DNA of 64,000 nt from Betaproteobacteria bacterium (GTDB lineage Bacteria > Pseudomonadota > Gammaproteobacteria > Burkholderiales > Sulfuricellaceae). Of this stretch, positions 5,074 through 45,349 are shown in pieces. Positions within the stretch are counted from its first letter, which is position 1; every line of letters begins with the position of its first letter. Location: the NCBI GenBank assembly GCA_021373185.1, contig JAJFTF010000031.1, positions 62,001 to 126,000 on the forward strand, given 5' to 3'. Made by a program: the position numbers and the translations under genes. Under the pieces are notes generated by a model. It worked only from the letters and a program-made list of their open reading frames with translations, searched no databases and had not been told where the DNA came from.

Positions 5074-5088
5074 CCAGGAAGGTCAGTG

Positions 5089-6156: not shown

Positions 6157-6217
6157 GCCAACGGAAAAAGATGATTACAAGTGAGTGAAAAAATGGATAT
6201 TCTACGTAGGTTAAAAT

Positions 6218-28861: not shown

Positions 28862-30090
28862 GCGCAAACTATAATTCATCATACGCGCCAATGTCGAGCA
28901 TTAGATATTGCGTTCGCTGCTGTGTGCCAGCAACTCAGGAGGGCGTCCAATTTGATGAAATGGGTGTTTGTACCGCATGCAGATCTTCCGAAGAGAAAAT
29001 GCATATTGATTGGAGTGCGCGCGAAAAACAACTTAGAGTCATTCTGGATGAAGCGAAAGCCAAGGCTGGCAACGGTTATGATTGCATATTACCAATCTCG
29101 GGGGGGAAAGATAGTTTTTTTCAGGCACATGTATTAACAAAGGTTTATGGGCTAAAACCCCTGGCTGTAACTTTTAGCCACAACTGGTTTTCGGAAACGG
29201 GGTTTTATAATTTGCAGCGATGCTTGGAAGTCTTTGAATTAGATCATCTGCAGTTTACGCCAGCCAGGGGGTTGGTAAACAGACTGGCAAAAAAATCCCT
29301 AGACGCAATTGGCGACACGTGTTGGCATTGCCATTCCGGTGTCGGTGCATTTCCTATTCAGGTGGCAACAAGATTTAAAATACCTCTGCTGGTATGGGGG
29401 GAGTCGCTTTCAGAAAATGACGGCAGAGCCACCTATCAATGCCCCACAACCCAATTCGATAGGGATCATTTCACAAAGGTTTCTGCAAGACTTACCGCCG
29501 ATGAAATGGTTGGCGATGATCTTTCGGCTAAGGACCTTTATCCATTTGCGTTGCCAAGTTACGAAGAAATTGATGATACAGGTGTTTGGGGCATCCATCT
29601 CGGGGATTATATTTTTTGGGACGACGAGCGCCAGACAGAGTGGATCCGTAATGTATATGGCTGGAGAGAGACGGAAATGGAAGGCGCCTATAAAGGATAC
29701 AAAAGTGCTGAATGCATCATGGCGGGCATGCATGACTTTACCTGCTATCTAAAACGAGGGTTTGGCCGTGCTACTTGGCAGGCTGCAGTTGATGTGCGAA
29801 ATGGACTTTTGACTAGAAAAGAGGGGTTTGATCTAGTTCGGAAGCATGATCCGGAACGCCCGGAGGCACTAGATTATTATCTTAAAATAACGGGTCTAAC
29901 TGAGTCAGAATTTTTCGCTGTAATGAAAGAAAAAAAGTTGGCGGAACTTCAAGGAGTCGACCTTCCGGTAAACAAGAAGTTGCAACCTAACGCCGAGCGG
30001 ATATTGCCTTTTGTGGAGCAGATCATTGAAAAGCACCTTCACCTTCCAGATGTCCGTATCGCACGTGATCAGGAGAAGTTAAGTAAATGA
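28858..30090 (+). CDS. pseA: N-acetyl sugar amidotransferase (PseA/WbpG type)
   Basis: A 410-residue PP-loop ATP pyrophosphatase. SGGKDS (81-86) is the ATP loop; C18, C21, C38 and C41 may bind zinc. The family turns an acetamido group into acetamidino, as PseA does for Pse5Ac7Am and WbpG for a mannuronic acid derivative. WbpG needs HisH/HisF-like partners for ammonia, and none is in the window; an amidase gene overlaps the 3' end by 4 bp instead. Confidence 0.87.
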   Translation: MSANYNSSYAPMSSIRYCVRCCVPATQEGVQFDEMGVCTACRSSEEKMHIDWSAREKQLRVILDEAKAKAGNGYDCILPISGGKDSFFQAHVLTKVYGLKPLAVTFSHNWFSETGFYNLQRCLEVFELDHLQFTPARGLVNRLAKKSLDAIGDTCWHCHSGVGAFPIQVATRFKIPLLVWGESLSENDGRATYQCPTTQFDRDHFTKVSARLTADEMVGDDLSAKDLYPFALPSYEEIDDTGVWGIHLGDYIFWDDERQTEWIRNVYGWRETEMEGAYKGYKSAECIMAGMHDFTCYLKRGFGRATWQAAVDVRNGLLTRKEGFDLVRKHDPERPEALDYYLKITGLTESEFFAVMKEKKLAELQGVDLPVNKKLQPNAERILPFVEQIIEKHLHLPDVRIARDQEKLSK

Positions 30091-31424
30091 GTCAATCGAT
30101 CTTTCTCGAGAAATCAATACCTGAAATTGTTCAACTGCTAAAAACGCATGAATTGTCTACGAACGACCTGATTCGTGTTTGCGAGAGGGTTGTTCAAGAA
30201 AATGAAGATAAAATTAAGGCATGGGTACGGTTTAATCCAAATGAGAAGATATATGGCTTGGCCAGTCCCGATATCGCTCCTCTTTACGGTATTCCCTTCG
30301 GTATTAAAGATATATTTAATACGTCAGCGTTTCCAACCCAAATGGGCTCTCCAATTTGGGAGGGATTTACGCCTGGAAACAATGCCCGCATAGTTGATTC
30401 GTTAATTTGGGCTGGTGCCATTCCCGTGGGGAAGACGGTTACAGCCGAGTTCGCCGTCCATGCGCTAAATGAAACACGCAACCCCCATGACCCTACCAGA
30501 ACACCGGGTACATCATCCAGTGGCTCCGCCGCCGCCGTGGCATGTGGCATGGTTCCATTTGCACTTGGGTCGCAGACCGCAGGGTCGATAGTACGACCAG
30601 CGAGCTTTTGTGGTGTCTGGGGTATGAAGCCTACCTTCGGCATGCTCCCACGGACTGGCGTACTAAAAACCACTGATTCGCTCGATACGCTGGGTTTTCT
30701 GGCGGCGCATGCAACGAGTCTGAGGAAAATTTTGGATGTTACGAGGGTTACGGGCCCAAATTATCCCTTTGTTTATAAAAATGTTGATAGTGCTGGTAGT
30801 TATCCGAAGTCAAAAAACAGGACTTGGAGGGTCGGCTTTGTTAAGACACACATTTGGCACAATGCTGAGGATTATGCTCAGAAAGCTATCCTTGATTTAG
30901 TTGGAAAGATATCTCGCACTGATAACTTTGAAGTCGAGGAAATAATTTGGCCCAATTCTTTGCATGAGGCACATCGGGTCCATTCTGTTATCTACACGAA
31001 ATCACTGGCTTACTACTTCAAGAATGAGGCGGCGCACTCTTCCAAGATTTCACCGGTAATGCTTAAAATGATGCAGGAGGGCGAGGGCATAAGCATCGAC
31101 GAATACCACTCGGCATTAAGGCAACAAGAGTACATGATTGATGAAATAGATCGGATTTTTAGCGATTATGATTTTGTGGTTAGTTTGGGTACCGGTAGTT
31201 CTGCGCCACTCAGAGGCGTAGAAGAATTGCCCGACCCATCCTTAATTTGGACGCTCGGTCATGTCCCTTCTGTTGCGGCACCGCTGTTCCGATGCCCTGA
31301 TGGACTGCCTTTTGGCGCGCAATTTGTTGCACGTCGCTGGAGTGATTACAAGTTGCTCCAAGGTATTGAGGAATTAGTGGCTGCGGGCATTCTTCCTGTC
31401 GGAAGCCAGATCATCAAAGTATGA
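30087..31424 (+). CDS. amidase-signature hydrolase
   Basis: A 445-residue amidase (GatA/AtzF family). The Ser-cisSer-Lys triad can be placed at K74 (FGIKDIFN), S143 (GTSSSGSAAA) and S167 (QTAGSIVRPAS), with the normal 24-residue gap between the serines. No such enzyme belongs to a standard nonulosonic pathway. Tight coupling to the PP-loop amidotransferase suggests it feeds ammonia to it or trims an amide on the same sugar; both are inference. Confidence 0.85.
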   Translation: MSQSIFLEKSIPEIVQLLKTHELSTNDLIRVCERVVQENEDKIKAWVRFNPNEKIYGLASPDIAPLYGIPFGIKDIFNTSAFPTQMGSPIWEGFTPGNNARIVDSLIWAGAIPVGKTVTAEFAVHALNETRNPHDPTRTPGTSSSGSAAAVACGMVPFALGSQTAGSIVRPASFCGVWGMKPTFGMLPRTGVLKTTDSLDTLGFLAAHATSLRKILDVTRVTGPNYPFVYKNVDSAGSYPKSKNRTWRVGFVKTHIWHNAEDYAQKAILDLVGKISRTDNFEVEEIIWPNSLHEAHRVHSVIYTKSLAYYFKNEAAHSSKISPVMLKMMQEGEGISIDEYHSALRQQEYMIDEIDRIFSDYDFVVSLGTGSSAPLRGVEELPDPSLIWTLGHVPSVAAPLFRCPDGLPFGAQFVARRWSDYKLLQGIEELVAAGILPVGSQIIKV

Positions 31425-33220
31425 TCTCACGGCAGATGAAGCTGCTGGTTATGACAGCACTTGAAGATACATGGGGAGATTGTGAGCCAGTTATTTTCTT
31501 GGGCGAGTGGTGTAAACGTTATGAACTGCGTGATGTCTGGTCAAAGAGGCGTGGCGAAACCGTCAAATTTCATTGGGATGACAGGGCGAAACTCAGGCGA
31601 GATTATGATTGCCTTGCCGCGCTTCACCAGTCTCTTCTTGGCAGTCTGACACAGTCTTTGAATGAATTACATCGAGTCGACTATAGCGCTCGCTATTGGC
31701 AAATTTTACTTGACCCCTGGTTGATGACCTATCTCAGCGCCATCTTTGATCGCTGGGAATGCTTGCGAATTGCATTTGAAGAAAATAATAATATTGGTGT
31801 TATTTGGTTGGATGGCATTGAATCTTCGCTGGCCCCCTTTTCATATGCTGAGTTCATCGATGCCGTAGCATATTCAGATGAATGGAATCAGTGCATTTAT
31901 CAGAGAATCATCAAGAGTGAATACTCAAGCAAGTGTTCGATTCAGTCAAGGCTACCTTTTGTACGGCGGGAGAATGACAGGTTCGGTGCTGTAGCTATGC
32001 AGCGTCAAAGTATTATCCGCAAAGCAATATCGTTCGGGGATCGTATCTTAGGTAGAATTTTTACAAATTATGACGTTATTTTTGTAGGTGCTACCTTTAA
32101 GTGGCCGGCGCTTATTAGGTTGAACATGGCTCTCGGCCAGGTTCCCAGGTTTTTTCTCGAAGAATTTCATCCGGTTTCGCGTTTGCCTGGCTTGTCTGCA
32201 TCAGGGGTATGTGACAGAGCCGATTTACGCCCCGACTTTCAGCCAAAATCAAGGTTTGAGGAGTTCATTAAATATTGGATTATTCATGATCTTCCTCGTT
32301 GCTTAGTTGAGGACTATGCGGCTATGCGGAACCGGGCAACCCATATGGCAATTAGCACGAAAGCGATTGCTACTGGCAGTAGTCACTGGGTTGATGCTTT
32401 TGTAAAAATGTGGGTTGCCGAGCAAGTGAATAAGGGTGTGAAACTGGTCATTTTAGAACATGGAGGATCGTTGCCGCCCTATAAGGAGCTTTTCGATTTT
32501 GAGGCCGATATCGCTGACATTAGAGTTAGTTGGTTTCTACCTTATCACCTTAAGCATGTGCGATTGCCGCCACCCAAGATTGTTGGGAGATACACCAACT
32601 GGCCTTCTGTATTTCGTAGATTGATTGGCCGAAAGAAATATTGTTCTTTCATCGGGAACGAATGCCCAAGATGGGCGTTTCGCGCACATTTCTATCCGAT
32701 GGCATATCAATGGTCCACTTCATTCAATATGACTCTCTTGTTATACGGTGGGCTCAGTGAGGAGGTTAAGGAATGGTTTCGGGTCAAGCCGTATCCCTCG
32801 CAGGGGTGGAATACTAGGCAGCGTTTCATGGATATTTTGGGCTTTGATAAGATATTTTCAGAAAAATCACTGGATCACGTTTATTCAGCATCGAAAGTGA
32901 TTGTGTGTTCTTATCCAGAAACAACGTTTTCTGAAGCGATGGCCTCAGGTGTCCCGACCATATTAATATACCCAGAGCACCTCTATGAATTAAACCCTGT
33001 CGCATTGCCGCTACTCGAAAGCCTCAAAGCCGCGAAGATTGTCTTTCACGATCCCATGGCCGCCGCCGCGCATCTTAATGCTATCTGGGCGGATCCCAGT
33101 GCGTGGTGGGGTAGCCCAGCGGTACTTCATGCCCGATCCGAATTCCATCGGCAAGCATTGGGTACAGACCGTAAGTGGTTGAAGAAATGGGTTGCATTCC
33201 TTCGAGGTGTAGTCGCTTAA
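31421..33220 (+). CDS. LIC12162-family putative transferase
   Basis: A 599-residue protein whose first ~120 residues match the LIC12162 pattern: FLGEWC, HWDDRAKLRRDY, and SARYWQILLDPWLMTY. The C-terminal half (VCSYPETTFSEAMASGVPTIL) resembles a GT-B donor site. These proteins sit in leptospiral and other surface-glycan loci with nonulosonic acid genes. Transfer of the cassette's CMP-sugar is the obvious hypothesis. Cytosolic, with no membrane helix. Confidence 0.75.
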   Translation: MISRQMKLLVMTALEDTWGDCEPVIFLGEWCKRYELRDVWSKRRGETVKFHWDDRAKLRRDYDCLAALHQSLLGSLTQSLNELHRVDYSARYWQILLDPWLMTYLSAIFDRWECLRIAFEENNNIGVIWLDGIESSLAPFSYAEFIDAVAYSDEWNQCIYQRIIKSEYSSKCSIQSRLPFVRRENDRFGAVAMQRQSIIRKAISFGDRILGRIFTNYDVIFVGATFKWPALIRLNMALGQVPRFFLEEFHPVSRLPGLSASGVCDRADLRPDFQPKSRFEEFIKYWIIHDLPRCLVEDYAAMRNRATHMAISTKAIATGSSHWVDAFVKMWVAEQVNKGVKLVILEHGGSLPPYKELFDFEADIADIRVSWFLPYHLKHVRLPPPKIVGRYTNWPSVFRRLIGRKKYCSFIGNECPRWAFRAHFYPMAYQWSTSFNMTLLLYGGLSEEVKEWFRVKPYPSQGWNTRQRFMDILGFDKIFSEKSLDHVYSASKVIVCSYPETTFSEAMASGVPTILIYPEHLYELNPVALPLLESLKAAKIVFHDPMAAAAHLNAIWADPSAWWGSPAVLHARSEFHRQALGTDRKWLKKWVAFLRGVVA

Positions 33221-33397: not shown

Positions 33398-34381
33398 ATG
33401 CCCAAGGCTCTGATCACTACTGTCCCCTTTGGCGACAAAAACCGGCTTCCGCTTGAGCTGCTCGAAGCCGCTGGCATTGAATATCTAATTAACCCTCTCG
33501 GACGTAAGCTTAAGGAAGATGAACTGGCTGAGATGGTGACAGATTTTGATGTGCTGATCGCGGGAACCGAGCCGATAACAGACAAAGTGATGGGTCGCGC
33601 CAGTCAACTAAAATTGATCTCTCGTGTCGGTATTGGGCTGGATAGTGTGGATCTGCTGGCCGCCGAGCGGCGCGGCATCCAGGTAAGTTATACGCCGGAT
33701 GCTCCCGCACCAGCGGTGGCTGAATTGACAGTCGGGTTCATGCTCACCCTATTGCGCTCCGTGCATGTCGCCAACGCTCAAATGCACCGTGGTGAATGGC
33801 ATCGCCACTTCGGGCGCCGCATCCCCGAAGTAACTATCGGCATCATCGGCACAGGGCGGATCGGCGGACGAGTGCTTCGTCGTCTTGCCGGGTTTGGTAC
33901 TCCGCGTATCCTGGTTAACGATATTCATCCGGATCAAACGATAGCTCCCGAGCTCAAGCTTGAGTGGGTCGGCAAGGAAGAAATTTACCGTCACGCCGAT
34001 GTCATCAGCTTGCATGTGCCGCTGACTGTTCATACCAAAAATATGATTCGGCGCGAGCATCTCCTGCAGATGAAGCCGGATGCGATAATCATTAACACCT
34101 CGCGCGGGGGGGTCATCAATGAACATGATTTGGCCGAAGTTCTTAATGCCGGCCATTTGAGCGGTGCGGCTATCGATGTGTTCGAGCAGGAACCCTATGC
34201 TGGCGAACTTGCTCAGATTGATCGTTGCCTGCTCACTTCGCATATGGGTTCCATGTCCGTTGACTGTCGTACACGCATGGAGATTGAGGCCACCGAAGAA
34301 GCGGTGAGGCTCTTGACGGGGCAAGCCCTGCAAGGACTCGTGCCGCCTGAAGAATACGAAGTACAAAGGCAGGGGTTGTAG
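33398..34381 (+). CDS. D-2-hydroxyacid dehydrogenase (PGDH-like)
   Basis: A 327-residue NAD-dependent dehydrogenase. GIIGTGRIGG is the coenzyme loop; the catalytic residues are R236 (NTSRGG), E265 (VFEQEP) and H282 (LTSHMGS). It lacks an ACT regulatory domain, unlike many SerA proteins. In this setting it may supply or reduce a 2-keto acid that becomes part of a CMP-linked sugar acid. AGAGGCGCTT precedes the ATG. Confidence 0.88.
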   Translation: MPKALITTVPFGDKNRLPLELLEAAGIEYLINPLGRKLKEDELAEMVTDFDVLIAGTEPITDKVMGRASQLKLISRVGIGLDSVDLLAAERRGIQVSYTPDAPAPAVAELTVGFMLTLLRSVHVANAQMHRGEWHRHFGRRIPEVTIGIIGTGRIGGRVLRRLAGFGTPRILVNDIHPDQTIAPELKLEWVGKEEIYRHADVISLHVPLTVHTKNMIRREHLLQMKPDAIIINTSRGGVINEHDLAEVLNAGHLSGAAIDVFEQEPYAGELAQIDRCLLTSHMGSMSVDCRTRMEIEATEEAVRLLTGQALQGLVPPEEYEVQRQGL

Positions 34382-34522
34382 CGACACATAGCCGCGAGTC
34401 TTACTCGCCCCTCGTTGCCCGGCTGACCGCTTCATTACTCAAAGCAGGAGCGACGCCGCTTATATTTGATAGTGTTTTAAAGAACCATCCGGAATTGCTC
34501 GGATAGTTACCAGGAGAAAAAA

Positions 34523-35290
34523 TTGACTGTTTGCGCCCTGATGATTGGTCGTGCCGGGAGTGTCGGCTTCCCCGGAAAAAATATTTACCCGGTTCTGGGC
34601 CGGCCGCTAGCGGCATATCCTTTGATGGCGGCGCACGCTTCCCGCTATGTGGACAGATTTTTTGTTTCGACCGATTCGCCAGAAATTATGGAAATTGGTC
34701 GCCGATTCGGTGCCGAACTGATTGATCGCCCAGCAGAATTGGCCACTAAAGCAGCCTTGGGCGAGGATGTTTTTGTCCATGGTTATCGGGAAATTGTTAA
34801 ACGACTTGCCGCCAAGGGTGAATCGGTGGAGTTGATGGTGCTACTTTTTGCCAACGGCGCAACCGTTACTGGAGCATTAATCGACGAAGGAATTGAGGCG
34901 CTAAGGAAAGATGTCGCACTGGATTCAGCCGTCACTACTTCTGTGTACAACATGTGGAGTCCGTTGCGTGCCCGCCGGTTGGGGGAAGATGGATGTCTTC
35001 ATCCTTTTGTGCCGTTTGAAACATTTGGCGACCCTGCAACTTTAAATTGTGACAGGGACTCTCAAGGAGATGTGTGTTTTGCAGATATGGGACTTTCCAT
35101 TGTGCGCCCTCATTGTCTTGAAAATCTGAAGGATGGCCTGCTTCCGCAAAAATGGATGGGGCGGCGCATTTATCCAATTAAATCGTGGGGGGGATGTGAT
35201 GTAGATTATGAATGGCAGCTACCTTCTGTTGAATACTGGCTACGCAAGCACGGATTCGAAGATGCGGAACCAGGTGAATTCACATTATGA
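34523..35290 (+). CDS. CMP-sugar cytidylyltransferase (NeuA/KdsB-like)
   Basis: A 255-residue acylneuraminate-type cytidylyltransferase. The MIGRAGSVGFPGKNIYPVLG region is a variant of the CTP-binding motif. A TTG start 6 nt after CAGGAG is chosen; the next in-frame ATG at 34541 would cut into the motif. It shows that region E, like A, makes a CMP-linked sugar. It overlaps the radical SAM gene by 4 bp. Confidence 0.83.
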   Translation: MTVCALMIGRAGSVGFPGKNIYPVLGRPLAAYPLMAAHASRYVDRFFVSTDSPEIMEIGRRFGAELIDRPAELATKAALGEDVFVHGYREIVKRLAAKGESVELMVLLFANGATVTGALIDEGIEALRKDVALDSAVTTSVYNMWSPLRARRLGEDGCLHPFVPFETFGDPATLNCDRDSQGDVCFADMGLSIVRPHCLENLKDGLLPQKWMGRRIYPIKSWGGCDVDYEWQLPSVEYWLRKHGFEDAEPGEFTL

Positions 35291-36447
35291 CCACTGAGGA
35301 TAATTCCATATACCGCAAGCACAACAGTTTTGTCGATTTACGTCCCCGGCATGGTGCGCTTCATGAGACAGTAATCGCACGTGTTGAGGCGTTGCGGGAC
35401 GAGCCACGGCGCGGCGATGGCATGTCTGATGCCTACCGGCGTATTCTTGATTTTGCTCTGCGAGATATTCTGACATGTGAGGAAGCGCACACGCCCTGCC
35501 TGCGGTTGACCCCCAATGTCATTGAGGAAATAAACACCCTTACGGGTAATGAACTTCCCCGATATCTCGTACACCGATATCGGTATGAGATATATCCTCA
35601 GCAGGCAGAGTTGGACGACTACCCTCCCTACCTCCAGATAGAGCCAAGTTCCATCTGTAATTACCGGTGCGTGTTCTGCTTTGAAAGCGACAAAACCTTT
35701 ACACGGCGCTCGGCTGGTTTTATGGGACATATGTCGCTGGACCTTTTTCAACGCATAATCGATGAAATTCACGGAAAAATTGAATTTCTATCACTAGCTT
35801 CGCGTGGTGAACCGTTATTGTGTCCAGATATTGAAAAGATGCTTGCCTATACACGGGGAAAATTTCTCAATCTTAAGATGAATACCAATGCTTCTTTACT
35901 GGATGAGCGTAAATGCCATGCCATACTTCAGGGCGGAGTAAAAACACTGGTATTTTCAGCAGATGCGGCATCCGAGCCACTCTACAGTCAGCTCCGGGTG
36001 AGAGGAAAATTGGATAAGGTACTGGCTAATATCGAGCAATTTCAGAATATTCGTGTCACCCAGTATCCTGATGCCAATATAATTACTCGGGTATCGGGGG
36101 TCAAGATGTCCGACCAGCAAAATCTGGATGAGATGGAGAATTTATGGGGCAACCTGGTTGACCAAGTGGCATTCGTCAATTACAACCCTTGGGAAGATAC
36201 TTACCATAGCCCGGTTAACGGGGTGTCGCAGCCCTGTTCAGACCTTTGGCGGCGCATGTTTGTCTGGTGGGACGGCAAGGTAAACCCTTGCGACGTGGAT
36301 TATAAATCGACACTTGCCGTTGGCAATTTCGGCTCTGACAGTCTTGGAAGAATATGGCGCTCGGTGGAATATGATGCTTTGCGCGAAATGCATTTAACCA
36401 ATAGGCGCCAGAATAAAGAGCCGTGCCGACGGTGTAGCGTGGTTTGA
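35287..36447 (+). CDS. radical SAM/SPASM-type enzyme
   Basis: A 386-residue radical SAM protein: the cluster cysteines are C124, C128 and C131, SRGEPLL is the GGEP motif and MNTNASLL the TNG motif. The C-terminal part has several Cys (VNPCDVDY, EPCRRCSV) that fit a SPASM or twitch auxiliary cluster. Such enzymes epimerise, dehydrate or oxidise their substrate. Lying between a cytidylyltransferase and an SDR, it likely acts on the sugar or its precursor. Confidence 0.85.
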   Translation: MTTEDNSIYRKHNSFVDLRPRHGALHETVIARVEALRDEPRRGDGMSDAYRRILDFALRDILTCEEAHTPCLRLTPNVIEEINTLTGNELPRYLVHRYRYEIYPQQAELDDYPPYLQIEPSSICNYRCVFCFESDKTFTRRSAGFMGHMSLDLFQRIIDEIHGKIEFLSLASRGEPLLCPDIEKMLAYTRGKFLNLKMNTNASLLDERKCHAILQGGVKTLVFSADAASEPLYSQLRVRGKLDKVLANIEQFQNIRVTQYPDANIITRVSGVKMSDQQNLDEMENLWGNLVDQVAFVNYNPWEDTYHSPVNGVSQPCSDLWRRMFVWWDGKVNPCDVDYKSTLAVGNFGSDSLGRIWRSVEYDALREMHLTNRRQNKEPCRRCSVV

Positions 36448-36452
36448 TTTAT

Positions 36453-37193
36453 ATGGGCCAGAAACAGAACATTCTTGTTGTGGGGGCATCGGGAGCAATC
36501 GGCTCTGCGCTTGTCCGGCAACTAGCGGATACAGATGTCTGTATCGGATTGCATTATTGTCATAATCACGAGAAGGCGGAATTACTAAAAAAGGAAATTG
36601 CGTCTGCTGGTTGCGAGGGTGTATTGCTACCGTCTCCCCTTGATTCGTGGCCAGCTTGCGTTGATTTTGCTGAGGTGGTGACTCAAAAATTTGGTACGGT
36701 ACATGCTCTTGCTCTTTGCGGCGGAAAGCTTGATTGGGTGTCCTGGCCACAACTCAATGAATCAAATTGGCAGGATATACTTTTCCAACATTGTGTTGCT
36801 CCATTTACTATTGTTCAAAAACTGGTGCCATCGATGCTTGCCGCACATGGAGGCAAAGTCGTTTATCTTAGTTCCATTTCCCCGAAATATGGCGGCTCTG
36901 TTAATACACTGCATTATGCGGCTGCGAAAGCGGCGCTCGAAACCGCTATGTATGGATTGTCACGGCAGCTTTGCAAGGATGGGATTCGGATCAATGGTGT
37001 TCGTGCTGGCTTCGTGGATTCACCTTTGCAGCGGGAGGGCAGGAGTGATGAGGATATATCCGAGCGGGTTGCCAAAATCCCACTTGGCCGACCGGGAAAG
37101 CCGGAAGAAATTGCTTCCGCGATGGCTTATTTGTTGACGGATCAGGCCAGTTTTATTCAGGGTGAAATTATTACGGTGGCTGGTGGCGATTAA
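36453..37193 (+). CDS. classical SDR oxidoreductase
   Basis: A 246-residue FabG-type SDR. GASGAIGSA binds NAD(P); the catalytic Ser is in VYLSSIS and Tyr/Lys in HYAAAKAALE; the C-terminal SFIQGEIITVAGG is typical. A TTG start at 36444 would overlap the upstream stop; ATG 36453 is preferred. Probably reduces or oxidises the radical SAM product. Confidence 0.85.
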   Translation: MGQKQNILVVGASGAIGSALVRQLADTDVCIGLHYCHNHEKAELLKKEIASAGCEGVLLPSPLDSWPACVDFAEVVTQKFGTVHALALCGGKLDWVSWPQLNESNWQDILFQHCVAPFTIVQKLVPSMLAAHGGKVVYLSSISPKYGGSVNTLHYAAAKAALETAMYGLSRQLCKDGIRINGVRAGFVDSPLQREGRSDEDISERVAKIPLGRPGKPEEIASAMAYLLTDQASFIQGEIITVAGGD

Positions 37194-37232
37194 ATTGAGC
37201 AAGTTGAGATATTATTCTTGGATTTTAAGAAA

Positions 37233-38063
37233 ATGAACATAAAGCAAAAGATTTTCGACCTGGTTTCGTTTCCTGTTTTGTTGATTCTTAACAGGGCAAT
37301 CCGGCCATCGGTAAGATTAGTTGAAAAATTGCACCCAATTTATACCGTAATAATGGGGAAAAATATTATCAAGTATGAATGTACAAGTTTGATAACTCTT
37401 TGGCGCGCAAAAACGCTACTTACCAAGGAACCCGACACTATTGAATGGATTGATTCGTTTGGTAGCGGCGACATCTTATACGACATAGGTGCAAATGTTG
37501 GAATGTACTCAATTTATGCGGCATCTAAGAACATTAAGGTAATCGCATTTGAGCCGGAGTCACAAAATTATGCGCAGCTCAATAGAAATATTTATCTGAA
37601 TCAATTTCAAGATCACATCATGGCACTAAACTTAGCAGTTGGAAAAAATAGTGCTATCGATTATTTGTTCTTGTCAGAATTTACGGTTGGCGGCGCAATA
37701 AATAACTTGGGAAGTTCAACAGACTATAATCATAAAGAAATGAAGTCCGTATTTAAGCAGGGAGTTATGTCATTTTCTCTGGATAACTTGATAGAGAAAT
37801 ATAATCTCCCTGTTCCCAGCCATTTAAAAATTGATGTTGACGGATTGGAATCGGAAATTATTTGTGGTGCGAAAAACACCTTAAATCATGCGGGGCTAAA
37901 AAGCATCTTGATTGAGCTAAATGAAAACCTTTCAGAAGATTCTGGCGTTGTTGAGATACTGCAAAAGAATGGATTTTCTTTAAAAGGAAAGTACCATGCG
38001 CCAATGTTTGATTTTACGGAGTATAAAGACATTTATAATTATATTTTTGTTAGATCGCATTAA
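37233..38063 (+). CDS. FkbM-family methyltransferase
   Basis: A 276-residue FkbM-type O-methyltransferase: LYDIGANVGMYSIYAA and VIAFEPESQNYAQL, then LKIDVDGLESEII. The gene is clearly AT-richer than its neighbours, hinting at a separate origin. ATG 37233 chosen over a TTG at 37218. A sugar hydroxyl is the likely acceptor. Confidence 0.83.
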   Translation: MNIKQKIFDLVSFPVLLILNRAIRPSVRLVEKLHPIYTVIMGKNIIKYECTSLITLWRAKTLLTKEPDTIEWIDSFGSGDILYDIGANVGMYSIYAASKNIKVIAFEPESQNYAQLNRNIYLNQFQDHIMALNLAVGKNSAIDYLFLSEFTVGGAINNLGSSTDYNHKEMKSVFKQGVMSFSLDNLIEKYNLPVPSHLKIDVDGLESEIICGAKNTLNHAGLKSILIELNENLSEDSGVVEILQKNGFSLKGKYHAPMFDFTEYKDIYNYIFVRSH

Positions 38064-38066
38064 TTA

Positions 38067-39605
38067 ATGCGCATCCTTCTTTTCTACCCGAACCTTTACG
38101 GCATGAATACCTTGCCGCCAGCAATGGGATTGTTCACAGCCATCCTGCGGCAGCGCGGCCATGAGGTGGAACTTTTTGATACGACGATCTATGAAAATTT
38201 GTCCGCAGTTGATGCGGATAAGCAAAAATCCGAAAACCTTAACGCCCGCCCTTTTGACGATACGCTTCTCAAACAACATGCGCGAACCACCAATGCAGTA
38301 GAGGATTTTAAAGGAGTAATTACCCGCTTTTCGCCGCATGTCATTGCGATGTCATGCACCGAGGATATGTATCCGTTGGGGGTGGATCTGCTGAAGACAT
38401 TGGGGGCAAATAGGCCGCCTGTGATAGTAGGCGGCGTTTTTCCTACCTTTGCTCCTGAGCTGGCGGTGCAACTTTCCGGTGGAACTATAGATTATGTGTT
38501 GTGTGGCGAGGGTGAGGAAACATTGCCTGATCTGTGTGAGCGACTGGGAAAGAGCGCGGATGTTTCTTCGATCAACGGGCTATACGCCATCATCGCCGGG
38601 AAGGAGATCAAGAACCCTTTGCCGCGCCCGGTAAATGTGGGCAGTCTGCCACTACCGGATTTCAGTTTGTTCGATGAGAGCCGTTTCTATCGGCCAATGC
38701 AGGGAAAGTTGCGTCGCATGATACCTGTGCAGACTATCCGCGGTTGTCCATACACCTGTGGATATTGCAATTCTCCTTCACAGATAGAAATATATAAATC
38801 GGAAAACAGTCGATTTTTTCGTTCTCAGAAAATTGAACTGGTGCGGCTCGAAATCGAACATGCAGTAAAGGCTTACCAGGCAGATTCCATCTATTTTTGG
38901 GCGGATACGTTTCTTGCTTGGAACGCTAGGGAATTTGACGAATTTTGTGAAATGTATGCGGACTACAAGTTGCCATTCTGGATACAGACTCGCCCTGAAA
39001 CTGTGACAGAGTATAAGTTTAAAAAATTGGCGGATATCGGTTTGCTTCGTGTGGCTTTTGGCGTGGAGCATGGCAATGAAGAGTTTCGCCAGCGATTGCT
39101 TGGGCGCAAAGTTAAAAATGATGTGATGATCAGTCAACTTGACTTGGTAAATTCGCTGGGAATACCAATTAGTGTTAACAATATCATTGGTTTTCCGACA
39201 GAGACGCGAGAGTTGGCGTTTGATACCATAGAATTAAATCGTCATTTCAAGTCTGACGGAGTAAATGCATATAGTTACACGCCATTTCACGGGACACCGC
39301 TACGTAAGTTGTCAGAAGAATTGGGGTATGTAAATAAAGGAGAGCTGGCTCGTTGCATTTCTCAACCCACGATGATTTCCATGCCACATTTTACCAAAGA
39401 GGAAATTGAGGGGGTGCGGCGCTGCTTTGTGCTTTATGTAAAAATGCCGAAAGAACGCTGGCCAGAAATACGGAAAGCGGAAGCCCTAACGCCGAAGGGC
39501 GACCAGATATTTCGCAAACTTAAAGATGAATGTTTGGAAAAATATATGCATTACGGCGACTATGTAAAAGAAGATGATATTGAAAAAGTGGAATTTGCGA
39601 AATAA
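38067..39605 (+). CDS. B12-binding-domain radical SAM protein
   Basis: A 512-residue enzyme with an N-terminal B12-binding-type domain (1-~150: FYPNLYGMNTLPPAMG, VIVGGVFPTFAPEL) and the cluster motif C227, C231, C234 (GCPYTCGYC). A long C-terminal region follows. Second cobalamin-type radical SAM in the window (see 11993), but little alike outside the core. Candidate C-methyltransferase or ring-altering enzyme for a novel sugar. Confidence 0.85.
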   Translation: MRILLFYPNLYGMNTLPPAMGLFTAILRQRGHEVELFDTTIYENLSAVDADKQKSENLNARPFDDTLLKQHARTTNAVEDFKGVITRFSPHVIAMSCTEDMYPLGVDLLKTLGANRPPVIVGGVFPTFAPELAVQLSGGTIDYVLCGEGEETLPDLCERLGKSADVSSINGLYAIIAGKEIKNPLPRPVNVGSLPLPDFSLFDESRFYRPMQGKLRRMIPVQTIRGCPYTCGYCNSPSQIEIYKSENSRFFRSQKIELVRLEIEHAVKAYQADSIYFWADTFLAWNAREFDEFCEMYADYKLPFWIQTRPETVTEYKFKKLADIGLLRVAFGVEHGNEEFRQRLLGRKVKNDVMISQLDLVNSLGIPISVNNIIGFPTETRELAFDTIELNRHFKSDGVNAYSYTPFHGTPLRKLSEELGYVNKGELARCISQPTMISMPHFTKEEIEGVRRCFVLYVKMPKERWPEIRKAEALTPKGDQIFRKLKDECLEKYMHYGDYVKEDDIEKVEFAK

Positions 39606-39608
39606 ATC

Positions 39609-40538
39609 ATGACAGCAATGGTCATTGTGTTCGGTGGAAGTGGTTTCCTGGGAAGTCATGTGGCGGATGCCTTGTCCGATGCGGGCTATCGCGTAAAAAT
39701 TTTTGATCGGGAACGCTCTCCCTACGTGCGCCCGGATCAAGAAATGATTATTGGCGACATCATGAACCTGGATGATGTTGTCAGCGCTTCCAGCGATTGT
39801 AAATATGTTTACAATTTTGCAGGGATTGCTGATATCAACGATGCCAAGAACCGTCCGGTGGATACGGCCAGAATCAATGTGCTTGGCAATGTGCACGTTC
39901 TGGAAGGCGCTCGCATCAATCAAGCTGAGCGGTTTGTCTTTGCCAGTAGCCTGTATGTATATTCTGAATCAGGTTCCTTTTACCGCGCCAGCAAGCAGGC
40001 TGCGGAGCGTTTTGTGGAAAGTTACCATGAAAGATATGATTTGCCATATACCATCCTTCGTTATGGGTCTCTCTATGGCCGTCGAGCTGATGGGCGTAAT
40101 GGCATTTACCGGTTAATCCGGGACGCTTTGGAAAAGAAAGAGATTACTTATTTGGGAAGCAAGGCGGCAATGCGTGAATACATTCATGCCCTTGATGCTG
40201 CAAAGCTGAGCGTACAAATCCTCGGGGCAGAATATGCAAACCGTCATATTGTGTTATCCGGGCAGGAACGTATGTCGGTGGAAAATTTTATGCGTATGAT
40301 CAGCGAAATGATCCCTGGCGGTGTGAAGTTGAGTTTTCAGGGTAAGGTTGATGACGGGCATTACATCATGACTCCTTATGGCTTTCATCCCAAGGTAGGG
40401 CACAAGCTGGTATCGAATGATTACGTGGATTTGGGACAAGGCTTGCTGGATTGCATGGCCGAAATACATGAGCAGATGCATAAAAGTGAACATGCAGACG
40501 GAGACTGGCTTGTGGCTGACAATGAGGCTAAAAGTTGA
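39609..40538 (+). CDS. NAD-dependent epimerase/dehydratase (extended SDR)
   Basis: A 309-residue SDR: FGGSGFLGSH for the coenzyme, FASSLYVYS, then FYRASKQAAER with Tyr and Lys. GalE-like outline; the sugar is unknown. Overlaps the HAD gene at its stop (TTGA). Confidence 0.83.
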   Translation: MTAMVIVFGGSGFLGSHVADALSDAGYRVKIFDRERSPYVRPDQEMIIGDIMNLDDVVSASSDCKYVYNFAGIADINDAKNRPVDTARINVLGNVHVLEGARINQAERFVFASSLYVYSESGSFYRASKQAAERFVESYHERYDLPYTILRYGSLYGRRADGRNGIYRLIRDALEKKEITYLGSKAAMREYIHALDAAKLSVQILGAEYANRHIVLSGQERMSVENFMRMISEMIPGGVKLSFQGKVDDGHYIMTPYGFHPKVGHKLVSNDYVDLGQGLLDCMAEIHEQMHKSEHADGDWLVADNEAKS

Positions 40539-41179
40539 TCAGGTTTGATGCGATTGTTTTTGACTTTGATGGTGTTCTGGTCGAGTCAGTTAATGTAAAA
40601 ACCCAAGCTTTTGCTGCGCTGTACTCTGGTTACGGCGACTTTATTGTGGAGCAGGTTGTTGCGTTTCATTTGGCAAATGGCGGGCTGTCACGTTTCGAAA
40701 AATTCCGTTATTTTCATAATAAATTGCTTGGGCTTCCTCTCTCTCTTGAGGAAGAAAATAGGTTGGCAGCCGATTTTAATGCGCGTGTCGAAGCTGCGGT
40801 GATCGCCGCTCCTTGGGTAGACGGGGCTGAGGAATTTCTAGCTAAATATTATACAAACATTCCTTTATTTGTGGCTTCCGGTACACCGGAAGAAGAATTG
40901 AAACGTATTTTGGAAAAACGGCATATCTCGCATTATTTCCGTGCGGTCTTTGGCTCACCCGCAAAGAAAGGTGCGATTCTGCGCGGCATTCTGGAAAATG
41001 GTGGTTACCGACCGGAAAAAATGCTGATGATTGGAGATTCTCTGCTGGATATGGAAGGTGCTAAGGAGGCGGGCGCTTGCTTTCTGGGGAGATTGGCACA
41101 GCCAGATAATGGGTTTCCGCCAGATGTGCCAACATTGCCCGATATGATTGGGTTGCAGAAATTTGTCCATGAGAATTAA
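40535..41179 (+). CDS. HAD-family sugar phosphatase
   Basis: A 214-residue HAD hydrolase; nucleophile D10 and acid D12 in VFDFDGVLVES, and motif IV in MLMIGDSLLDMEGA. A TTG start at 40535 overlaps the previous stop. In KDO and related pathways a HAD phosphatase dephosphorylates the acid before CMP activation, which fits the cytidylyltransferase at 34523. Confidence 0.85.
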   Translation: MIRFDAIVFDFDGVLVESVNVKTQAFAALYSGYGDFIVEQVVAFHLANGGLSRFEKFRYFHNKLLGLPLSLEEENRLAADFNARVEAAVIAAPWVDGAEEFLAKYYTNIPLFVASGTPEEELKRILEKRHISHYFRAVFGSPAKKGAILRGILENGGYRPEKMLMIGDSLLDMEGAKEAGACFLGRLAQPDNGFPPDVPTLPDMIGLQKFVHEN

Positions 41180-42986
41180 CATTACAACACCCGAGTGTGT
41201 GGGTAAGTTGGAAGTGATGAAATGTGGCTGGATTTATGCGGACGATAATCTGGAAGTATTCCGCCTGACAATGGATGTCTTGGGGAAATCTCATCTCTTG
41301 GTATCGGCCGAAACTTTTCAGCGATGTGCCCTAGACCTTCAAGCGCCGTTTGTACGCTGGGTGGACGAATGTATGAGTACAGTTTCCCGCCGTTATTGGC
41401 TTGCAACACCCTTAAGTAAAAATCCTTTCGAAAGCCATTTGTTCTTGCACTTGGTCTGGTTGTTTTTGGTAGGCCAAATTGCCAAGCAGGGAAAGAATGA
41501 AATCATTGTCGTGACAAGGTCGCACGGGCTGGCTATAGCTTTGGGCGAGTTGTGTCTTATCCATAGCTGGGAGTGTAAACGTTATGGTAAAACTGGTTCG
41601 ATATTTTCTCATTGGCGCCATAATTTAATTGCGCTGACAAAATGGCTTGGCAAACTACTGCTGCTAGTTTACAGGGTGGCTGTGGCAAAATTTATTTTCA
41701 CGAAAGAGTATGTGGCGACAAAAATGGCCACAACAGAACTGTTGCTCGAAACCTATATTCTTGAGGGCGATTTGGGTGAGGATAACAGATGTAAAGACCG
41801 TTATTTCCCCGGGTTAATGGCGTATTACCAAGCTCAGGGGATCAAGGCAGGTTATTTTCCACATCTTTACCATATTTCTTTCATGCATATTTGGAAAACT
41901 TATTCTGCCATGAAGCAAAATGAGGTTGTTTTTGTGCCGTTTGAGGTTTTTATTACTTTCCGTGACATGGCGCTAGCAGCTTGGACTAGTATGCGTTTTG
42001 GCCTGTCATTTCGCCTGCAAACGCCACTGTTATTTCAAGGTGCACCGGTGAGTTCGCTGGTTCGGGCTGAATGCTTTACATCTGGGTTGCGTGGAGTTGT
42101 GCCTTTTATTCTTGCATGCGCGCCACGCCGTATGGCGGAGGTGGGGGTGAGGCCAAAATGGTTTATTGATTGGTTCGAGAACCAGACCCTTGATAAGGGT
42201 GTTGTTATGGGTTTCAAGGAAGGTTTGCCCGAATGCCACACGATTGCGGTACGACAATATGTGCCTTTGAGCAATTTTCTCTCATTGCTTTCTTCATCTG
42301 GAGAGGTCAAGGCTGGTGTCGCTCCAACTGAGAACTGGGTTTGTGGAGATGCGCTTAAGCCGATACTTTCCCGTTTTGATATGGTAGGCAAATACTCCGT
42401 GGTGCCCGCGTTGCGATATTCCTATATTCATCAATCCGCTCCAGCTACTATGGTGGGCGATGTGCTGTTGGTGTTGTTGACACATTCTATGGAAGAGTCG
42501 ATGGCTATTCTAGATTGTGTAACGCCGCTTTGTCGAGAGAAGGGAATAGGTGTTTCCCGTTTAATTATTAAAACCCATCCGGCGATGAACTTTATGCAGT
42601 TCCGGCAAAAGGCGGAACTGCGGTTTCCTTCCTTGAGAATGAATGGTATTGAATGGGCAGATGTCAAAATTGACGAGCTTTTTCCTCTTGCAAAAGTGGT
42701 TGTAACCTCTGGTTCCAGTTCAGCGGTAGAAGCGATATGTCGTGGAATACCAGTAGTTCTAGTTGGGCGCCATGCGGGGTTGAATTTTAATCCGCTGGAG
42801 GAAGTTGATTCGAGAATGTGGATCATTGTGTACACCCCGAGCGATCTCAGAAAAGCAATCGTCCATCGGTATTGCGAAGAACGGCTGTCAATCACAGAAC
42901 GTTTTGCCATCGCCGAAAATACGCGGAAAGCTTTTTTCATGGGGTCAGGAAACGATGAGATGCGCCGTTTTTTGCCAACAAAATAA
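41169..42986 (+). CDS. large surface-carbohydrate transferase-like protein
   Basis: A 605-residue cytosolic protein without an assured family. The C-terminal part reads VVTSGSSSAVEAICRGIPVV, a GT-B-type donor region like that of the 31421 protein, and the N-terminal third is rich in aromatic residues. It may belong to the LIC13510 or a related surface-carbohydrate family. ATG 41169 chosen over a TTG at 41148. As in region D, it closes a cassette and is the likely transferase. Confidence 0.6.
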   Translation: MRINITTPECVGKLEVMKCGWIYADDNLEVFRLTMDVLGKSHLLVSAETFQRCALDLQAPFVRWVDECMSTVSRRYWLATPLSKNPFESHLFLHLVWLFLVGQIAKQGKNEIIVVTRSHGLAIALGELCLIHSWECKRYGKTGSIFSHWRHNLIALTKWLGKLLLLVYRVAVAKFIFTKEYVATKMATTELLLETYILEGDLGEDNRCKDRYFPGLMAYYQAQGIKAGYFPHLYHISFMHIWKTYSAMKQNEVVFVPFEVFITFRDMALAAWTSMRFGLSFRLQTPLLFQGAPVSSLVRAECFTSGLRGVVPFILACAPRRMAEVGVRPKWFIDWFENQTLDKGVVMGFKEGLPECHTIAVRQYVPLSNFLSLLSSSGEVKAGVAPTENWVCGDALKPILSRFDMVGKYSVVPALRYSYIHQSAPATMVGDVLLVLLTHSMEESMAILDCVTPLCREKGIGVSRLIIKTHPAMNFMQFRQKAELRFPSLRMNGIEWADVKIDELFPLAKVVVTSGSSSAVEAICRGIPVVLVGRHAGLNFNPLEEVDSRMWIIVYTPSDLRKAIVHRYCEERLSITERFAIAENTRKAFFMGSGNDEMRRFLPTK

Positions 42987-43070
42987 AAACGGAGAGGCTT
43001 ACTATAAAGTCTTGCTCTCTGGGCGGAGAGTTGGCTGGCAAAGGGTTTGGAATTTTTAGGACATTATTTG

Positions 43071-44168
43071 ATGGCATTCCAGAATGCATTTTATGGTAAG
43101 ACCGTTCTTATTACCGGCCACACCGGCTTCAAAGGCGCATGGCTCACCGCATGGCTCAAACAACTTGGTGCCAAAGTAACGGGCATTGCCCTAGATCCAC
43201 CCACCGACCCATCTCATTTTGCTGTTACGCAACTGGCAAATGGCATGGTCGATCTTCGTATCGACATTCGGGATCGGATGGCTTTAGAGGGGGCATTTGT
43301 TTCTGCTCAACCCGATTTCGTGTTCCACCTCGCTGCACAGGCATTAGTGCGACGTTCGTATGATGAACCCATTGAAACTTGGCAGACCAATGTGCTGGGT
43401 ACCCTGCACGTGCTTGAAGCCTTGCGCAAACTGGACAAACCCTGTGCGGCAGTGATCATCACCAGTGACAAATGTTATGATAATGTGGAGTGGGTTTGGG
43501 GTTACCGTGAGACTGATGCTATGGGTGGTCCCGATCCATATAGCGCATCCAAAGGCGCGGCGGAGTTGGCCATTCGCTCTCATATCAAGTCGTATTTCCC
43601 CAAAGCAACGAGCAAGGTACGTATTGCTTCGGCACGGGCGGGAAATGTGATCGGCGGGGGTGATTGGGCGGCAGACCGTATCGTGCCAGATTGCGTGAAG
43701 GCGTGGTCAATCAATAATGCTGTAGAACTGCGCAATCCGTACTCCACCCGGCCTTGGCAGCATGTACTTGAGCCGCTGAGCGGCTATCTGAGTCTTGCCA
43801 TTGCCTTGTCGCAGCGTTCTGAATTACATGGCGAGCCGTTTAATTTCGGGCCGCCTGCGCAACAAGATCACAGCGTTCTAGAGTTGGTACAGCAGATGGC
43901 TCTGCATTGGGACAAGGTGCGTTGGCAGGATGTGTCACAGTCGACAGCAGGACCATACGAGTCCGGTTTGCTCAAACTCAACTGCGACAAGGCGCTATAC
44001 TATTTGCGTTGGCACGCAGTGATGGGCTTTAAAGATACCGTGCGTATGACCGCAGAATGGTATCGTGCATATTATCAACAGCCAACGCAGATTGCGGCTA
44101 CAACTCAATCACAAATTGAGGCATATATGGTGTTTGCTAAGCAACAAGGATTGGTGTGGGCAGAATAA
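43071..44168 (+). CDS. rfbG: CDP-glucose 4,6-dehydratase
   Basis: A 365-residue extended SDR: ITGHTGFKGAWL for NAD, TSDKCYDN and the YSASKGAAE catalytic Tyr/Lys, plus RPWQHVLEPLSGYL. Converts CDP-glucose to CDP-4-keto-6-deoxyglucose. ATG 43071 follows a 84-bp spacer. RfbF, its substrate-making partner, is two genes on. Confidence 0.93.
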   Translation: MAFQNAFYGKTVLITGHTGFKGAWLTAWLKQLGAKVTGIALDPPTDPSHFAVTQLANGMVDLRIDIRDRMALEGAFVSAQPDFVFHLAAQALVRRSYDEPIETWQTNVLGTLHVLEALRKLDKPCAAVIITSDKCYDNVEWVWGYRETDAMGGPDPYSASKGAAELAIRSHIKSYFPKATSKVRIASARAGNVIGGGDWAADRIVPDCVKAWSINNAVELRNPYSTRPWQHVLEPLSGYLSLAIALSQRSELHGEPFNFGPPAQQDHSVLELVQQMALHWDKVRWQDVSQSTAGPYESGLLKLNCDKALYYLRWHAVMGFKDTVRMTAEWYRAYYQQPTQIAATTQSQIEAYMVFAKQQGLVWAE

Positions 44169-44584
44169 GTTTAAACGATATTTTGATTACGCCGCTAGAG
44201 CGTATCGCGACAACGGGTGGGAATGTGTTGCACGCCATGAAGCAGACTGATGCGGGCTATGCTGGTTTTGGCGAGGCCTATTTTTCCTGGGTGGCTGTCG
44301 GTGCGGTCAAGGCTTGGAAGCGTCACACACGGATGACGATGAATGTCGTCGTACCCGTAGGGAAGGTGCAGTTTGTGTTCTGTTTGGATGGCGCCGATGA
44401 ATTTCGAGTTGAGGAGATTGGTGTTTGTCGTTACGTACGTCTATCCGTGCCGCCAGGCGTCTGGTTCGGCTTCCAAGGGTTGGCCGCGCCTCAAAGTCTG
44501 GTGTTGAACGTCGCCAACATCCCCCATGATCCCAATGAGGTTGAGCGTCTTGCGCTATCAGAAATTAAATATGGTTGGGGCTAG
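44156..44584 (+). CDS. 3,5-epimerase-like cupin (RmlC family)
   Basis: A 142-residue cupin like dTDP-4-dehydrorhamnose 3,5-epimerase, shorter than RmlC (~180). AWKRHTRMTMNVVVPVGKVQ carries the family's basic/His segment. GTG start overlapping RfbG. It probably epimerises the CDP-4-keto sugar to the L-series. Confidence 0.75.
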   Translation: MGRISLNDILITPLERIATTGGNVLHAMKQTDAGYAGFGEAYFSWVAVGAVKAWKRHTRMTMNVVVPVGKVQFVFCLDGADEFRVEEIGVCRYVRLSVPPGVWFGFQGLAAPQSLVLNVANIPHDPNEVERLALSEIKYGWG

Positions 44585-44587
44585 GCT

Positions 44588-45349
44588 ATGAAGGTCATCT
44601 TACTTGCCGGTGGTTTCGGCACACGTCTGGCCGAATACACCGATATCATTCCAAAACCGATGGTGCCGGTCGGTGGTAAGCCGATCCTTTGGCACATTAT
44701 GCAGACCTATGCCCACTTTGGGCACAAGGATTTTTATGTCGCATTGGGTTACAAGGCCGAGGTGATCAAGGAATATTTCCTCAATTACCGTGCGCTTAAT
44801 GCCGATTTTACGGTGGATCTTGCATCGGGTGGCGTCACGCCGCACCAGGTCGATTCTGTGGATTGGCGAGTGACCTTGGTCAATACGGGTGACGCTTCAA
44901 TGACTGGTGGTCGTGTCAAGCGTATGCGGTCATTTGTTGGCGATGAGACTTGCATGCTGACCTATGGTGATGGAGTGGCAGATATTGATCTAGATGCGTT
45001 ACTGGCTTTCCATCGCAGCCACGGTAAGATAGTCACTGTGTCTGCTGTTCGACCTGCCGCCCGTTTTGGTGAGTTGGAACTGGAGGATGGGCGTGTAGCC
45101 AATTTCCAGGAAAAGCCCCAGTTGCATGAGGGGTGGATCAATGGCGGTTATTTTGTGATTGAGCCAGCGTTCTTCGATTTGATCGCGGGTGATAGCACTC
45201 TGTTGGAGCGAGAACCTTTGGAACAAGCTACCCAAGCAGGTGAGTTGATGGCGTACCGCCATGATGGTTTTTGGCATTGCATGGACACCAAGCGTGACCA
45301 TGAGTTACTGGAATCACTATGGGCTAAGGGCGCGCCTTGGGCTGTTTAG
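44588..45349 (+). CDS. rfbF: glucose-1-phosphate cytidylyltransferase
   Basis: A 253-residue nucleotidyltransferase: LAGGFGTRLAEYT and the KP of IPKPMVPVGGKPILWHIM-type RfbF proteins. It makes CDP-glucose for RfbG. No RfbH (3-dehydratase) is in the window, so the 3-OH should be kept in the end product. Confidence 0.93.
   Translation: MKVILLAGGFGTRLAEYTDIIPKPMVPVGGKPILWHIMQTYAHFGHKDFYVALGYKAEVIKEYFLNYRALNADFTVDLASGGVTPHQVDSVDWRVTLVNTGDASMTGGRVKRMRSFVGDETCMLTYGDGVADIDLDALLAFHRSHGKIVTVSAVRPAARFGELELEDGRVANFQEKPQLHEGWINGGYFVIEPAFFDLIAGDSTLLEREPLEQATQAGELMAYRHDGFWHCMDTKRDHELLESLWAKGAPWAV

Follow-up and report, generated by a model that had tools for sequence, protein, structure and literature searches.

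How could a bacterium make a sugar acid activated with cytidine monophosphate (CMP) from a gene set that contains no aldolase or synthase? The question is raised by a cassette of nine genes at positions 33398–42986 of a 64,000-nucleotide stretch of betaproteobacterial DNA (contig JAJFTF010000031.1, positions 62,001 to 126,000; hereafter the window). The original prediction, made from the sequence, had described the cassette as a tightly packed run of nine genes with no aldolase or synthase. All nine open reading frames (ORFs) were confirmed on the + strand, with the predicted families and positions, and a Pfam and profile scan of the nine ORFs bore out the missing synthase for this interval; two NeuB-type synthases lie elsewhere in the window. 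We propose that the product of the cassette is a CMP-activated 2-ulosonic acid formed through oxidation rather than aldol condensation, a reading for which our confidence is evenly balanced. It is suggested by the repeated occurrence together of a dehydrogenase, a lactonase, a hydroxyacid dehydrogenase and a phosphatase. The reason why a synthase might be dispensable could not be seen in the window, because the lactonase is present only in other loci.

Proposed pathway of the nine-gene cassette

The route would begin with an extended short-chain dehydrogenase/reductase (SDR) of the epimerase type (EPI; 39609–40538, PF01370, Epimerase), a putative NAD-dependent sugar-6-phosphate dehydrogenase that would oxidize C1 of a sugar-6-phosphate, most likely glucose-6-phosphate, to a phospho-aldonolactone. 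The ring would be opened by a lactonase: a 6-phosphogluconolactonase or a PF04199 protein in some cassettes, and in the window's genome possibly the product of a PF01182 gene encoded elsewhere. The D-2-hydroxyacid dehydrogenase (HADH; 33398–34381, PF02826/PF00389), a member of the phosphoglycerate dehydrogenase/2-ketoaldonate reductase superfamily, would oxidize C2 of the phospho-aldonate to give a 2-keto-aldonate phosphate, which the HAD phosphatase (40535–41179, PF00702/PF13419) would convert to the 2-keto-aldonate. With CTP, the synthetase (34523–35290, PF02348, CTP_transf_3), which has a NeuA fold, would then produce a CMP-hex-2-ulosonate.

Tailoring would follow. The radical SAM/SPASM protein (35287–36447, PF04055 and PF13186), a putative BtrN-like alcohol dehydrogenase, would oxidize another hydroxyl, and the classical SDR reductase (36444–37193, PF13561, adh_short_C2) would re-reduce the ketone, possibly with inversion of the centre; in other organisms a HisC-like enzyme would aminate the ketone, giving an amino analogue. 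Two further steps would be optional: methylation, probably of oxygen, by the FkbM-family methyltransferase (37218–38063, PF05050, Methyltransf_21, with TIGR01444 also above cut-off), and chemistry by the B12-binding radical SAM protein (38067–39605, PF02310 and PF04055). A LIC13510-like GT-B protein (41148–42986, weak TIGR04326 match and predicted fold) would finally transfer the sugar. The analysis shows the genes, their folds and catalytic residues, the recurring gene set, the association with lactonases and the enzyme replacements; from these we infer all of the substrates, the order of the steps and the product, a hex-2-ulosonic acid or, with HisC, its amino analogue. The detailed chemistry stands at about even odds; our confidence is higher that this is a CMP-sugar-acid pathway without a cassette-borne KdsA or NeuB synthase.

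The first eight ORFs exceed the curated Pfam cut-offs, and the ninth has no Pfam match. The nine are packed as an operon: from the coordinates there are 4-base overlaps between synthetase and radical SAM, radical SAM and SDR, and EPI and HAD genes, and the other intergenic gaps are 3–24 bases, apart from 141 bases between HADH and the synthetase. Promoter and terminator scans gave signals at chance level.

The synthetase has a NeuA fold but a different loop

The synthetase scored 42 bits against PF02348 (cut-off 22.6), and was below the cut-offs of the KdsB family (31.3 bits against 234) and of PseF (TIGR03584, 68.1 bits against 205.7). Its AlphaFold2 model (mean pLDDT 91) gave Z-scores of 25.4 with a CMP-NeuAc synthetase (6ifd) and 23.9 with a CMP-Kdn synthetase; the nonulosonate group as a whole, including CMP-Pse, ranged from 25.4 to 21.9, and scores were lower for KdsB (19.7) and IspD (19.4). 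The motif residues Lys19, Asn20, Arg69, Asp226 and Asp228 are invariant in an alignment of homologues, the metal-binding-type Asp226/Asp228 pair near the C terminus being retained in all of 54. In place of the NeuA ‘LQPTSP’ loop the protein has another loop, in which an Asn is invariant. Since the fold is NeuA-like and the motif residues are invariant, yet this loop differs, the protein is probably a synthetase of CMP-2-keto acids that has a specificity of its own. A Kdo-type route was set aside, as the KdsB score is far under the cut-off. The original prediction, that the cassette is devoted to a CMP-sugar acid and stands apart from the Pse, Leg, Neu and Kdo routes, is thus largely supported, both by these sub-threshold scores and by the recurring set of partner genes described below.

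The same partner families recur around the synthetase in many phyla

The cassette synthetase was found in none of 149 other genomes of the closest relatives; the cassette was therefore probably acquired horizontally. A sample of the window's class contained two full-length homologues (55–58% identity). Using an alignment of three synthetases, ∼85,000 species genomes were scanned and the best 80 loci kept (57–91% identity). The synthetase belongs to a subfamily of its own, with 81 loci in the family. Carriers among these 80 include Gallionella, Nitrospirae, Nitrospinae, Omnitrophica, Elusimicrobia, Chloroflexi, Pelagibacteraceae, Lachnospiraceae and Actinobacteria, together with one cyanobacterium, several methanogens and Methanoperedens. 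One Gallionella locus (L015) is a near-twin of the window cassette. Cultured carriers include Planktothricoides sp. SR001 and Methanolobus psychrotolerans. A tblastn search of plasmids with the synthetase found distant NeuA/PseF relatives at most, and a DNA search with the window's synthetase gene found nothing in Escherichia coli genomes.

Co-occurrence was counted within 8 kb of the synthetase in 82 loci, with the window excluded and neighbour families defined by clustering. EPI was present in 53 loci, HADH in 45, HAD in 35 and SDR in 32. Radical SAM proteins occurred in 52, as two subtypes (rSAM1 in 24 and rSAM2 in 28) that were never found together. A HisC-like aminotransferase was present in 27 loci, the B12 radical SAM protein in 26 and Gfo/Idh dehydrogenases in 16. 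The FkbM methyltransferase was seen in 10 loci, nine of them with rSAM1, and EPI accompanied 33 of the 35 HAD genes. This recurrence exceeds chance and the cassette is real. The search for the same gene set, proposed when the cassette was first described, thus showed homologues that are not scattered but keep the same partner families.

Two kinds of locus depart from this set. In four actinobacterial loci (L061, L068, L070 and L075) an AroB-like cyclase and an IolG-like dehydrogenase take the place of EPI, HAD and radical SAM. In L012 (466–5596) the synthetase is surrounded by GAPDH-like, HAD-like, SDR and FAH-family (AraD1-like, weak) genes and a divergent HADH, and EPI is missing.

Lactonases and conserved catalytic residues in the proposed oxidative module

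A 6-phosphogluconolactonase homologue was present in 9 of the 82 loci, where ∼1 would be expected from the density of PF01182 genes in the window's genome, a rough control that assumes uniform density. It lies directly before HADH in L019–L021, and in L018 it separates the synthetase from EPI. All eight cassette lactonases tested passed the TIGR01198 cut-off of 124.45 (132–213 bits), among them all four tested from the nine synthetase loci. Nine other loci have a PF04199 hydrolase; each of them also has EPI and HADH, and the hydrolase gene is an immediate neighbour of HAD or EPI. The nearest named family of this protein is arylformamidase, below cut-off, so its assignment as a lactonase is a guess. 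The two types never share a locus, although with these small numbers this is not significant (p 0.59). The window cassette has no lactonase, and its genome has two PF01182 genes elsewhere that are candidate lactonases.

The catalytic residues of the module are conserved. In HADH, whose best solved relatives are a phosphoglycerate dehydrogenase (1wwk) and, at a lower score, a 2-ketogluconate reductase (9m0t), the Rossmann GxGxxG motif and the Arg236/Glu265/His282 triad are invariant in 27 of 27 homologues. Ser113, Tyr125 and Lys129 of EPI are invariant in 43 homologues, and the DxD nucleophile motif of HAD is conserved across its homologues. An IolO-like TIM barrel, resembling keto-hexonate epimerases, occurs in 10 loci and was counted in favour of oxidation.

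A search seeded with EPI, and so independent of the synthetase, matched ten of 398 genomes of the phylum, the window's own included. Of ten neighbourhoods besides that of the window, nine had HADH on the contig that carries EPI, seven had HAD and five had a candidate lactonase.

A second lineage carries the module beside a KdsB-like synthetase

In G035, a complete genome from the window's order, HADH, EPI, HAD and lactonase genes form an operon with a KdsB-like synthetase and an HpcH/HpaI aldolase, in the order KdsB-like, aldolase, HADH, EPI, HAD, lactonase. EPI was found in 24 of 25 genomes of this genus (g17) that were searched, G035 included, and the order of the six genes is identical in all 13 genomes examined (L108 and L153–L164). 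Neither KdtA nor LpxC was found in 12 g17 genomes searched, and no KdsA above cut-off in G035; all three were found in the window's genome. Genus g17 is thus apparently, judging from these searches, a proteobacterial lineage without lipopolysaccharide (LPS) that has an alternative CMP-ulosonate operon. Given these absences, its KdsB-like synthetase probably does not act in an ordinary Kdo pathway. The presence of the module with this synthetase in an apparently LPS-less lineage ties it to CMP-ulosonate activation independently of the window synthetase.

Swapped enzymes suggest oxidation of a hydroxyl followed by reduction or amination

The presence of two radical SAM enzymes had been taken to suggest carbon-skeleton or methyl chemistry. 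This is not supported: the SPASM enzyme is nearest to BtrN and is swapped for IolG-like dehydrogenases in other loci, and the B12 enzyme, found in only 26 of the 82 loci, is an optional tailoring gene. The best PDB match of the SPASM enzyme is BtrN (4M7T, E 8e-11), and the alignment is ungapped over the C-terminal cluster domain. It has the CxxxCxxC motif and the single auxiliary cluster that characterize the BtrN type, and the auxiliary-cluster pattern C-x17-C-x44-C-x2-C, which nearly all rSAM1 proteins and most of the rSAM2 type carry, matches the cysteine spacing of BtrN itself. We therefore propose, from these sequence features, that it is a BtrN-like alcohol dehydrogenase carrying out a two-electron oxidation of a secondary alcohol, a reaction with which its replacement by Gfo/Idh dehydrogenases agrees.

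Radical SAM and Gfo/Idh (IolG-like) dehydrogenases were found together in one locus only (p 2e-7, 82 loci). SDR (32 loci) and the HisC-like aminotransferase (27 loci) were never found together (p 3e-8), although the count could miss a divergent SDR in a locus with HisC, as with partial D_SDR-like ORFs upstream in L019. These p-values ignore kinship. On the synthetase tree, a quick tree with many weak branches, there were at least 8 switches between radical SAM and Gfo/Idh and at least 14 between SDR and HisC. Because the enzymes are repeatedly swapped without co-occurring, they are probably alternatives for one step, with oxidation of a hydroxyl being followed by either reduction or amination of the ketone.

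The ninth protein matches TIGR04326 below cut-off. In its predicted structure residues 194–612 adopt a GT-B fold (best Z 14.5, a generic match), and His477-Pro478 is invariant in 15 homologues. The GT-B protein would be a likely user of the CMP-sugar.

Evidence against an oxidative route and alternative explanations

Several observations weigh against the oxidative route. The use of EPI as a sugar-phosphate dehydrogenase is the weakest link of the pathway, because its sequence resembles nucleotide-sugar SDRs: the best scores are to nucleotide-sugar epimerases and dehydratases, and the glucose-6-phosphate dehydrogenase Azf is matched weakly, by 21 of 43 EPI members (best 6e-14). The window EPI scores below the cut-off of the Azf family (NF041293, 34.4 bits against 400); this lowers the case for family membership, not for the proposed analogous reaction. 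Oxidation of C2 of a 2-hydroxyacid is uphill and needs a pull. No lactonase was seen in 64 of the 82 loci within the available stretch, some of which end at a contig edge. EPI is missing both from L012, which has a GAPDH-like enzyme, and from the four actinobacterial loci with an AroB-like cyclase, where HAD is missing too. EPI and HADH occur together in three genomes (G531, G638 and G622) where no full-length member of the synthetase family was found. Lastly, the g17 operon includes an HpaI/GarL-like aldolase that would be superfluous.

The last two points each feed an alternative. EPI, HADH and HAD could make a different building block, such as a nucleotide sugar or a substituent of the glyceric-acid type, with the synthetase using an acid from central metabolism and the genes linked by a common glycan. 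The modules without a recognizable synthetase of this family, and the likeness of EPI to nucleotide-sugar SDRs, would suit such an arrangement, but in the best-resolved lineage, g17, another CMP-ulosonate synthetase shares the operon with the module. We consider this explanation unlikely, though slightly more probable than the other alternatives.

Next comes a route in which HADH and HAD turn 3-phosphoglycerate into hydroxypyruvate, which an HpcH-type aldolase, in the cassette or elsewhere, would join to an aldehyde; the resulting 3-hydroxy ulosonic acid would be CMP-activated, and EPI and the lactonase would serve the acceptor. The profile of HADH is nearest to phosphoglycerate dehydrogenases, and the aldolase fixed in the g17 operon speaks for this main rival. 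Clustering of the neighbours in the 82 synthetase loci, however, brought out no recurrent aldolase family, and a 6-phosphogluconolactonase beside HADH or HAD would have no obvious role.

It is improbable that the acid is an ordinary nonulosonic acid supplied by the window's NeuB synthases, with the cassette merely modifying and activating it. The window does contain two of these (1333–2376 and 19979–21088) and the synthetase does have the NeuA fold; but each NeuB block already has its own NeuA or SpsF, the NeuA ‘LQPTSP’ loop is not kept, and a NeuB-family gene lies within 8 kb in just 5 of the 82 loci.

Least probable, and by some way, is a carbasugar or cyclitol route, in which, as for aminoglycosides, an AroB-like or other cyclase would form a carbocycle for oxidation by BtrN- and IolG-like enzymes, themselves cyclitol enzymes, and CTP would serve for its activation: one actinobacterial AroB-like protein is above the TIGR04425 cut-off and has homologues in three more loci, but AroB is limited to these 4 of 82 loci, a single clade, and is absent from the window interval. 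CMP activation together with a B12 radical SAM enzyme brings phosphinothricin to mind, but a phosphonate route was set aside: no phosphonate gene was seen, although none of the searches was aimed at PEP mutase. A pentulosonic acid like that of Klebsiella K38 was also considered and set aside.

Surface-glycan setting of the cassette

The window as a whole is devoted to surface glycans and includes two distinct NeuB-type blocks, at 1333–9314 and 15240–21088. The nonulosonate genes of window 1–9314 comprise two formyltransferase-like genes, a PIG-L-like deacetylase, NeuB, NeuC-like and NeuA. An SpsF-like cytidylyltransferase at 17120–19147, apparently fused to a class III aminotransferase, adjoins the NeuB-type synthase of the second block. 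Immediately 5′ of the cassette (28858–33220) are a PseA-type amidotransferase, an amidase and an LIC12162 transferase.

Immediately 3′ of the cassette (43047–45349) are the CDP-glucose genes RfbG, FdtA-like and RfbF, which also adjoin the synthetase in the unrelated L012, L061, L062 and L070. As these genes recur beside the synthetase in unrelated genomes, the CDP-6-deoxysugar and the CMP-acid may be components of the same glycan.

Comparison with known pathways

To our knowledge, every known CMP-ulosonic acid (Kdo, Neu, Kdn, Leg and Pse) begins with condensation of phosphoenolpyruvate (PEP). We found no description of the present pathway in the open-access papers searched, on CMP-sugars and radical SAM enzymes, hexulosonic acid, BtrN and polysaccharides, lactonases of O-antigen clusters, and 2-ketogluconic acid. 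The cassette is widespread and apparently undescribed, and our best reading is that it makes CMP-ulosonic acids by a new oxidative variant of their biosynthesis. A broader claim, which we advance only tentatively, is that there is a widespread, undescribed class of nucleotide sugars, CMP-activated hex-2-ulosonic and amino-hexulosonic acids made purely by oxidation of sugar-6-phosphates, which bacteria and archaea would share through horizontal gene transfer and which g17 would have fixed as a core pathway of its envelope. If the oxidative route is correct, there would be a separate branch of acidic surface sugars in which the CMP-ulosonate is reached by oxidation. This would account for the recurrence of the gene set across many phyla and would give a likely function to the BtrN-like radical SAM family of glycan clusters. 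The five small soluble enzymes would be directly testable in one pot, and the g17 operon, from a genus in which no LPS genes were detected, offers a simple lineage in which to seek the sugar.

The CMP-Kdo and CMP-nonulosonate (Neu, Leg, Pse and Kdn) pathways share with the cassette a HAD phosphatase, a CMP-ulosonate synthetase of the same fold, a GT-B transferase and a surface-glycan setting. Unlike them, the cassette has no KdsA- or NeuB-type synthase, and a dehydrogenase, in some loci a lactonase, and HADH are proposed to act before activation. That proposal has a parallel in the Epd/PdxB (vitamin B6) and SerA/SerB branches, where an aldose phosphate is converted to a phospho-aldonate and C2 is then oxidized by a D-2-hydroxyacid dehydrogenase; the GAPDH-like enzyme and HADH of L012 mirror Epd and PdxB. 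The cassette differs in ending with a CMP-activated acid, and in having an SDR in most loci and sometimes a lactonase. The cassette lactonases of other loci that pass the TIGR01198 cut-off resemble the 6-phosphogluconolactonase of the pentose phosphate pathway but, in a subset of loci, sit in glycan clusters beside HADH, EPI or HAD.

The E. coli K3 capsule is cited as containing 4-deoxy-2-hexulosonic acid (Dengler 1988, reference 32 in PMC10433991). On that citation, hex-2-ulosonic acids are known chemically from bacterial glycans.

For the tailoring steps, the nearest solved relative of the SPASM enzyme is BtrN, the radical SAM alcohol dehydrogenase of butirosin synthesis, with matching auxiliary-cluster spacing. 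The setting is also BtrN-like, in that NAD-dependent dehydrogenases can replace the SPASM enzyme and an aminotransferase lies nearby in many loci. The sequence similarity is, however, distant, and the proposed substrate is a sugar acid rather than an aminocyclitol.

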